Positions 27,908 through 29,420 of a stretch of DNA of 64,000 nucleotides are shown here, one piece after another. The position numbers and the translations under genes are program-made. This DNA comes from Sinosporangium album (GTDB lineage: Bacteria; Actinomycetota; Actinomycetes; Streptosporangiales; Streptosporangiaceae), in NCBI RefSeq assembly GCF_900100605.1, contig NZ_FNCN01000025.1:1-64000 (forward strand). The letters are read 5' to 3'. Numbering within the stretch: position 1 is the first letter of the stretch; every line of letters begins with the position of its first letter. The notes under the pieces were generated by a model. That model had not been told where the DNA came from, ran no database searches, and saw only the letters and a program-made list of their open reading frames with translations.

Positions 27908-28120
27908 TCAGGCGTCCTCCAGGCGGAAGCCGACCTTCATCCCGACCTGGAAGTGCGCCACCTCTCCGTCGACGAGGTGGCCGCGCACCTCGGTGACCTC
28001 GAACCAGTCAAGGTGGCGCAGGGTGCGCGCGGCGCGCCCGAGCCCGTTGCGTATGGCCTGGTCGATGCCTTCCCCCGAGGAACCGACCACTTCGGTCACC
28101 CGGTACGTTCGATCCGTCAT
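27908..28120 (-). CDS. dodecin family flavin-binding protein
   Basis: A 70-residue protein (MTDRTYRVTEVVGSSGEGID...) matching dodecin, a small dodecameric flavin store. The conserved central W and following GHLVDGEVAHFQVGMKVGF are present. ATG 28120 gives the standard length; GGGAG lies just upstream. Confidence 0.93.
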   Translation of the reverse strand: MTDRTYRVTEVVGSSGEGIDQAIRNGLGRAARTLRHLDWFEVTEVRGHLVDGEVAHFQVGMKVGFRLEDA

Positions 28121-28244
28121 CCCGCTCCCCCGCATCTCAGCAGCAGTACCGGCCGCCCCCGTGGCCGGGCCGTGCCTGTTGACTACCCGGGAGGGCCCGT
28201 CACATGCCAAGGGTCACCCGGTGGCCGGAGAGGTCTAACGTGGA

Positions 28245-28562
28245 ATGGTGAAGACGTGGCGGAAGCGCTCGACCGTGCATCCGGTGACCGATGCCCAGCC
28301 CTCTCTGACCGCCGACATCGGCCGTAGGGAGAAGCGCTATCTCATCCAGATGGGCATCCGCACCATCTGTCTGATTCTCGCCGTGGTCGTCCCCGGACCC
28401 TGGCCTGTGAAGATCATCTTTATCGCGGGCGCTGTATTTTTGCCGTACATTGCCGTAATCGGGGCGAATGAACGGGGGAAAGGCACCCCTCCCCCCACCT
28501 TTGACGACCCGGAAGCTAACCAAAACGAGATACCAAGGCATCGACGTGAGATCGGGTCGTGA
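28245..28562 (+). CDS. DUF3099 family membrane protein
   Basis: A 105-residue protein with PSLTADIGRREKRYLIQMGIR followed by two hydrophobic segments (about 37-55 and 57-75) and a polar tail; this matches the actinobacterial DUF3099 family. Function unknown. It is directly upstream of the hairpin RNA below. Confidence 0.85.
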   Translation: MVKTWRKRSTVHPVTDAQPSLTADIGRREKRYLIQMGIRTICLILAVVVPGPWPVKIIFIAGAVFLPYIAVIGANERGKGTPPPTFDDPEANQNEIPRHRREIGS

Positions 28563-28569
28563 CTAAGTC

Positions 28570-28601
28570 TTGACGCACACCACGGGTAGTAGGTGTACGC
28601 T
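28570..28601 (+). promoter_or_regulatory. possible promoter of the hairpin RNA
   Basis: TTGACG at 28570-28575 resembles a -35 box; TGTACG or TACGCT (28594-28601) is a weak -10 candidate at an 18- to 20-bp spacing. The pair stands immediately before the structured RNA, which supports it, but the -10 is poor. Confidence 0.35.
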
Positions 28602-28603
28602 TT

Positions 28604-28721
28604 AGCCAAGCGCCCTGGTCCCCCGTCGGGGCGCTGGTGCCGGCGTTCCGGGCCCCCGTCGGAACGCCGATGAAGCGACGCCGGGTGGTTTGCCCCCGTA
28701 ACCACCCGGCGTCGCCCTTTT
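28604..28721 (+). ncRNA. 6C-like small RNA with three C-loop hairpins
   Basis: Three hairpins follow in order: 28609-28635 (7-bp stem), 28641-28669 (10-bp stem) and 28675-28715 (perfect 16-bp stem). Each loop contains CCCCCGT. The last is followed by TTTT and acts as the likely terminator. The design resembles the actinobacterial 6C RNA class, whose two hairpins carry cytosine-rich loops. Here the runs are five cytosines and the terminator loop repeats the motif. Identity with 6C is an inference; a free-standing small RNA after DUF3099 is well supported by structure. Confidence 0.65.
28675..28721 (+). terminator. intrinsic terminator, 16-bp stem with T-run
   Basis: GCGACGCCGGGTGGTT (28675-28690) pairs perfectly with 28700-28715, followed by CCTTTT. 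It ends the small RNA and may also terminate DUF3099 transcription. Confidence 0.8.
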
Positions 28722-28968
28722 CATCTCATCTTTGACGGGGAGCCTTCCCCCCGACCACCTCCCGCGGCCGTCCCGTCGGCGCACGCCTGTCGCGCCCGTC
28801 GAACGCGGCGCCGCAGCGGGTCGGTCAAGTCCGCCAGTCAAAGCGCCGCGGGGACCATGCCGTACGGCGAGCGCGCTGTGGCCGCCCGTGACGGGCGGCC
28901 CTGCGGGAGCGGGCTCGCGGCGAGCGGCCCCGGACGGCGGTGGACGAGCGGTCGGCCATCGGGAGCGG
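28722..28968. other. intergenic, nothing recognised
   Basis: About 250 bp of GC-rich sequence between the RNA terminator and the convergent DUF6457 gene. It contains one GCCGTACGGC palindrome (28859-28868) and no convincing coding frame. Confidence 0.5.
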
Positions 28969-29214
28969 TCAGCGGTCCTTCGTGTCGGCCGCCCACTCGC
29001 GGGCGCGGCGGGTGAGCAGGCCGACGGCGTCCTCGGGGGCGGTGCCCGCGCCCTTCGCCAGGCCGAGCAGATAGACGGTCAGCGGGGCAGCGGGGCGCGC
29101 GACGCCGTGGGCGATCTCACGCGTCAGGTCGAGGACCACGTCGCGGTCGACCGTGGCCGGGTCGATGCCCAGCTCGCGGCACACCTCCGCGGTCCACTCC
29201 TCCAGCACGTTCAC
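28969..29214 (-). CDS. DUF6457-type small protein
   Basis: An 81-residue protein (NVLEEWTAEVCRELGIDPA ... YLLGLAKGAG) of the type found beside molybdenum cofactor genes in actinobacteria. GTG 29214 has AGGAG with 8-nt spacing. It follows mobA on the same strand after a 206-bp repeat-containing gap. Its role is unknown; the context suggests molybdopterin metabolism. Confidence 0.78.
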   Translation of the reverse strand: MNVLEEWTAEVCRELGIDPATVDRDVVLDLTREIAHGVARPAAPLTVYLLGLAKGAGTAPEDAVGLLTRRAREWAADTKDR

Positions 29215-29420
29215 AGGACACACTCCTTTCACACCCATCCCCGCACTCCGGGAACGGGTCCGTTTCACGGCCCGCGGCACCGAGACGCGCACGCGGCGGG
29301 ACACGGGCACGGCCGGACGGGCCCGATCTCGCCGCCCGCCGCGCACGACCCGCCGCGCGCCCGCGGCGTTCGGCGGGACACGGGCACGGCGGGACACGGC
29401 GCGCGGCGCCGGGGAGCGCG
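29215..29420. repeat. gap with GGCGGGACACGGGCACGG repeats
   Basis: Imperfect repeats of CGGCGGGACACGGGCACGG occur at about 29296-29315 and 29369-29400, between mobA and the DUF6457 gene. There is no coding frame with family resemblance. Confidence 0.5.

Follow-up and report, generated by a model that had tools for sequence, protein, structure and literature searches.

A strongly conserved predicted small RNA of actinomycetes with repeated CCCCCGU loops

Introduction

On the + strand of a 64-kb stretch of DNA from Sinosporangium album (the window, by which we mean the whole stretch analysed), positions 28604–28721 read as three hairpins in succession with CCCCCGT in each loop. The locus raises the question of whether these hairpins make up a small RNA gene, whether such an RNA would be the known 6C RNA or something else, and what its repeated loops might contact.

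A three-hairpin RNA with identical loops

The sequence and fold of 28604–28721 agreed with the initial annotation, which had described hairpins that each display CCCCCGT, a 16-bp terminator hairpin among them, and three identical presentation sites: all three loops are CCCCCGT. The elements of the predicted gene are as follows.

28604–28721, + strand: predicted small RNA gene with three hairpins, marked by family-wide conservation, covariation and a score of 136.4 bits with R1, a covariance model of the three-hairpin RNA that was built with the window sequence included
28609–28635, + strand: hairpin 1, 9 pairs, CCCCCGT loop at 28620–28626
28641–28669, + strand: hairpin 2, 10 pairs, CCCCCGT loop at 28653–28659
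28675–28715, + strand: terminator hairpin, 16 pairs, CCCCCGT loop at 28693–28699
28716–28721, + strand: CCTTTT tail 3' of the terminator stem, TTTT at 28718–28721, read from the sequence

The nine-base hairpin loops are GTCCCCCGT, GGCCCCCGT and TGCCCCCGT, and the terminator stem is a perfect inverted repeat, in which 28675–28690 pairs with 28700–28715. The minimum free energy of 28604–28725 is −79.1 kcal/mol, whereas 200 shuffled sequences averaged −52.5 (z = −7.4) and none of them was as low. CCCCCGT occurs 12 times in the window, both strands counted, and four copies lie over a stem of at least six pairs, namely the three of the small RNA, with stems of 9, 10 and 16 pairs, and a fourth in a weak hairpin at 28156.

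This fourth copy, at 28149–28168, stands on a stem of six pairs in the interval from the dodecin gene to the DUF3099 gene. In the 57 rows compared, six (from three genomes) have CCCCCGT in this stretch and the hairpin forms in the own-genome rows only, so it is not conserved among relatives.

Stems vary and are rescued, loops hardly vary

Of 341 genomes of the Streptosporangiaceae, 335 gave a blastn match to 28600–28725 (E ≤ 1e-4), a single one in most; matches were present in 280 of the 283 good-quality genomes and in 65 of 68 genera. We aligned 32 of 72 family loci found by blastn, chosen for diversity (alignment A1). Across A1, 99.8% of cells are paired and both sides have changed in 15 of 35 pairs, neither value being reached in any of 500 shuffles, and sliding the partner by 1–3 columns lowered pairing to 36–53%. 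Compensatory changes in related genomes, whose absence had been named beforehand as grounds for rejection, are thus present: both-side changes affect 4 of 9 pairs in hairpin 1 (99.3% of cells paired), 5 of 10 in hairpin 2 (100% paired) and 6 of 16 in the terminator hairpin.

Column identity in A1 was 99.0% for the C5GT loops, 92.0% for the stems and 62.5% for the spacers. Of the 32 sequences, 26 have an exact CCCCCGT in every loop; the variants are CCCCCGC in loop 1 (four sequences) or loop 2 (one) and, in one sequence, CCCCGT in the first two loops. Because the stems vary but are rescued and the loops hardly vary, the loops are indicated as contact sites. On these comparisons, the window element is almost certainly a strongly conserved small RNA gene of actinomycetes. 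It is kept in nearly all family genomes, its loops are steadier than its stems and it is shared with Streptomyces, so the RNA very likely has an important function.

A promoter-like block upstream

The small RNA starts 41 nt 3' of the stop of a DUF3099 gene (28562) and faces a convergent gene. Its immediate surroundings are these.

28245–28562, + strand: DUF3099 protein gene (Pfam PF11298, E = 7e-24), the upstream neighbour and marker of the conserved junction
28570–28601, + strand: promoter-like block of conserved pattern, TTGAC (28570–28574), N18, GTGTAnnnT (28593–28601)
28969–29217, − strand: DUF6457 gene (Pfam PF20058, E = 4.7e-24), the convergent downstream neighbour

Beyond DUF6457 come a MobA-like gene and then a MoaA gene (TIGR02666). 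Upstream in the window are a dodecin gene, two PmbA/TldD-type genes and two short-chain dehydrogenase genes, presumably encoding FabG and FabI.

Such a setting, together with a 16-pair hairpin ending in TTTT, would suit an element that has no role in trans and only terminates transcription strongly where two genes converge, or that forms the 3' end of the DUF3099 mRNA. We consider this quite improbable, since such an element would need neither near-invariant loops nor two further hairpins that covary nor a promoter-like block held at constant distance. A plain terminator should have neither a conserved promoter nor conserved structure upstream; here hairpins 1 and 2 covary and TTGA[CT]-N-GTGTAnnnT stands in 52 of 53 unique upstream sequences (obtained from the 69 of 71 loci with enough flank), against 0.01 expected in mononucleotide shuffles, although generic simple promoter and terminator scans found nothing in 28200–29000. 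The gap between the two parts is 18 in 52 sequences and 19 in one. Moreover, seven family loci (L028, L063–L068) keep both the RNA and the TTGAC/GTGTA block although the search for DUF3099 upstream of them gave no match.

The block at 28570–28601 presumably works as a promoter. Read as a −35 element TTGACn and a −10 element TAnnnT it would have a spacer of 20, which is unusually long, so that an activator or an alternative sigma factor is possible. Among the unique sequences of two-loop relatives (see below), 43 of 44 have another motif, TGnnATACT-like, ahead of the hairpin; the putative promoters are of two kinds, each lineage-specific.

Two-hairpin relatives at the same junction

To follow the RNA beyond the family we searched the class with R1. 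At E ≤ 0.01, 77 of 296 genomes gave a match; 49 of these lie outside the family and scored 32–65 bits. From the latter we retrieved 19 loci, together with the second R1 match that G015 contains. DUF3099 stands directly upstream in 18 of the 19 loci, MoaA directly downstream in 17, and one or both in all 19. By eye, most carry two loop-bearing hairpins, and three (L107, L109 and L112) have a clear loop motif on the terminator only. The second match in G015 (L110, 36.4 bits) proved to be a plain terminator without the loop and was rejected as a homologue.

A scan of named genomes for a CCCCCGT pattern returned at least 119 stretches, and the 119 listed were all classified. Among the matches listed, 64 are two-loop, 26 three-loop (named three-loop relatives include Nonomuraea and Microbispora) and 29 one-loop forms; DUF3099 lies upstream in 79, MoaA, MobA or DUF6457 downstream in 76, and either or both in 88. 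The predicted relatives in Streptomyces and other orders sit at the same DUF3099/moaA junction and are mostly two-hairpin forms.

Of 46 candidates, five had no match to a terminator pattern; 34 of the 41 references that passed it form alignment A2, from which four Jiangella-like rows with other hairpin spacing and three near-duplicates were left out. This pattern and the named-genome scan themselves contain CCCCCGT, so constancy of the terminator loop is there partly by construction, a dependence from which the blastn-based A1 is free. Across orders, 99.9% of cells in A2 are paired, with both-side changes in 11 of 22 pairs. A two-hairpin covariance model built from its 34 sequences (R2) matched 118 of the 296 class genomes at E ≤ 0.01 and had no match at that threshold in 178, so the RNA is widespread but not universal in the class. 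Within the window's order, R2 matched 117 of 121 genomes at E ≤ 0.01, missing G010 and three genomes from a single other family. At E ≤ 1e-4 it matched nine of 198 genomes of a phylum sample that includes class members, all nine in the class.

Hairpins 1 and 2 of the window RNA are 73% identical in register at a spacing of 33 nt. This is consistent with tandem duplication, and the extra hairpin of the window lineage is probably a tandem duplicate that arose in the window's order. The single 5' hairpin of Streptomyces resembles, by eye, hairpin 1 more than hairpin 2. Much of the class probably inherited a two-hairpin RNA as the ancestral form, and the window's lineage has one hairpin more.

Same plan as 6C, different RNA

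Rfam release 15 (gathering scores 47 bits for 6C, RF01066, and 52 bits for Scr3202, RF02833) gave no match at the gathering cut-off in the window or in the loci of 20 relatives. The covariance search with the 6C model, which had been proposed as a check, found nothing in the window at gathering or in 28000–29300 at E ≤ 10, and in the loci of seven relatives (two among the 20) neither 6C nor another actinobacterial sRNA was matched at E ≤ 5. We are thus dealing with a conserved RNA on which no Rfam 15 family reaches its cut-off.

The likeness to 6C drawn in the initial annotation holds for the plan and fails for sequence match and locus. Both RNAs have C-loop hairpins followed by a C-loop terminator, an order also seen in the two-hairpin relatives, and 6C (RF01066; B11 of M. 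tuberculosis, scr3558 of S. coelicolor) is likewise an actinobacterial sRNA with C-rich hairpin loops whose last hairpin is the terminator. A C loop on the terminator had been thought to set the present RNA apart; that distinction falls, as the second hairpin of this genome's own 6C has a C loop and then a T run. The latter gene lies at G000:C64:96901–96976 (60.1 bits, above cut-off), near a TIGR03815 Ssd gene, and we take Rv3660c of M. tuberculosis to be ssd. In M. tuberculosis, 6C is placed at rv3660c–rv3661 (PMC8628891), and in S. coelicolor it adjoins SCO3558, a place in the ssd region at SCO3557/3558 (PMC8539372).

In contrast to the two hairpins and ssd region of 6C, the window RNA has three hairpins and lies between DUF3099 and the DUF6457, MobA and MoaA genes; 6C loops are defined as six or more C (PMC8388888), whereas all three loops here have five C and then GT. 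Filing the RNA as 6C was rejected, given the lack of a 6C match in Rfam searches and the canonical 6C elsewhere in the same genome. That it is nevertheless the 6C gene or a second copy of it is very improbable: the shared architecture and a weak R2 score on the genome's 6C (18.0 bits, E = 0.095) speak for it, but the latter is a likeness of plan and not membership, and 6C (E ≤ 1e-3) co-occurs with the present RNA in 57 of the 77 class genomes that R1 matched.

The best-scoring Rfam match to 28.0–29.3 kb was Scr3202, which has in common a hairpin and a second hairpin with C-rich loops. At 27.1 bits (E = 0.2), below its gathering score, filing as Scr3202 was rejected.

The numbers of Streptomyces scr RNAs follow SCO numbers. 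Two of these RNAs, scr5583 and scr1434, are alike by description in having a C-rich loop and high expression (PMC3765725); moaA is SCO1821 (PMC4021200), and by number neither would be expected in its region. In the available extracts of the open-licence literature we found no sRNA assigned to the DUF3099/moaA junction; supplementary tables for Streptomyces may list an unnamed homologue, candidate places being the 83 RNAs of PMC4681348 and the core intergenic regions of PMC11678152.

Base-pairing and target searches

Structure, conservation, synteny and covariation support an RNA gene, whose product most likely acts in trans. The reading we prefer, at about an even chance, is an independently transcribed, stable, trans-acting sRNA of ~115 nt with its own intrinsic terminator and with CCCCCGU loops as its working part. 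Transcription would start at ~28604–28608, driven by the conserved block at 28570–28601, and end at the RNA's own terminator. The stems would serve as scaffolds and the single-stranded CCCCCGU loops might each dock on ACGGGGG-type RNA, several loops per molecule giving higher avidity or binding more partners. Pairing with such RNA is the simplest reading by analogy with 6C, which is reported to bind panD and dnaB mRNAs (reviewed in PMC8628891). That the window RNA works by base-pairing with mRNAs we rate slightly below even. The preferred reading is weakened by the lack of ACGGGGG enrichment, by the absence of a conserved target in the searches described next and by the 178 class genomes without an R2 match.

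We looked for ACGGGGG before gene starts, using a simple gene caller of our own that gave 612 windows from 613 called genes on ~815 kb of the 7.06-Mb genome (~12%). The word was present in two of the 612 start windows versus 1.06 expected and ranked 19th of 42 same-composition permutations, so the earlier idea that the loops pair with G-rich ribosome sites of many mRNAs gained no support in this part of the genome. Some other G5 words were more enriched, for example GGGGGAC with six occurrences versus 1.01 expected in the same 612 windows. One leader, that of proC (L261:5106–5114), contains ACGGGGGAC, which is exactly complementary to loop 1 over 9 nt and lies right before the start, at the position of the ribosome site. 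Among 30 family sequences, read from half of the 60 genomes that gave a match, this complement occurs in the own genome alone (1 of 30), and proC was rejected as a conserved target. Neither the start-region test nor the proC test would readily detect a small number of specific targets.

A further place where the loops could act is the ribosome, through a 16S rRNA segment, GACGGGGGCCCG, that is complementary to CCCCCGU and over 12 nt to hairpin 2. The exact complement is present in the 16S rRNA of two class members, G118 and G504; however, 16S complements exist for 2–3 of the 16 words CCCCCxy, CCCCCGT included, so chance is likely. Of the three 9-nt loop words only that of loop 2 matches 16S, and we take the segment to be helical in the mature subunit. 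An action on the ribosome by this route is extremely improbable. The 16S sequences used came from relatives; G001, of the same genus, gave none, and the own assembly gave a short fragment only. This 16S rRNA-like fragment (L304, G000:C90:178040–178165; 56.9 bits) has protein-coding surroundings and is the only 16S match in the assembly.

Loops as a possible decoy

Since the start-region, proC and 16S tests lent no support to pairing, a protein decoy is a serious rival, if an unlikely one. CsrB and RsmZ are sponge RNAs whose repeated GGA loop motifs are bound by CsrA, and the window RNA shares with them repeated identical loop motifs on stem scaffolds, differing in its CCCCCGU loops, where theirs have GGA motifs and CsrA as partner. 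Its loops would by this reading be repeated sites for an RNA-binding protein, which the RNA would titrate. The entire 7-mer is kept while the stems drift, loop number varies by lineage in the matches listed above, and the start-region and proC tests found no antisense target, all of which would be expected of a decoy; the same pattern also fits antisense loops, however, and no candidate protein was identified. A broader form, marginally less probable still, would make this a family of decoy RNAs whose CCCCCGU loops titrate one conserved partner, either unfolded 16S rRNA or a protein that binds RNA; each lineage would have set how many docking sites it has by duplicating or losing hairpins. If true, the CsrB principle would have a counterpart in actinobacteria.

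Lineages with two and with three identical loops offer a natural experiment on antisense pairing versus protein titration by C-loop RNAs, 6C included, in bacteria without a known RNA chaperone; for mycobacteria, no Hfq-like chaperone is known (PMC8628891).

One-loop loci at other junctions

The one-loop loci, for example L155:1341–1412 (− strand) and L123:7351–7423 (+ strand), have a single CCCCCGT hairpin directly 3' of a GTGTAnnATT-like motif. Among the matches listed, 26 of the 29 lie at junctions other than DUF3099/moaA, and the titles inspected are mainly of Micromonosporaceae. These loci may share descent with the window RNA: FabI/FabG genes stand upstream, in the same orientation as in the window, in 12 of the 29 among the matches listed, and R2 gave 32–40 bits on five one-loop loci. 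Their hairpins are usually without a U run, L150 having TTTT, and the hairpin of L155 adjoins, by eye, MoxR/PH-domain-type genes.
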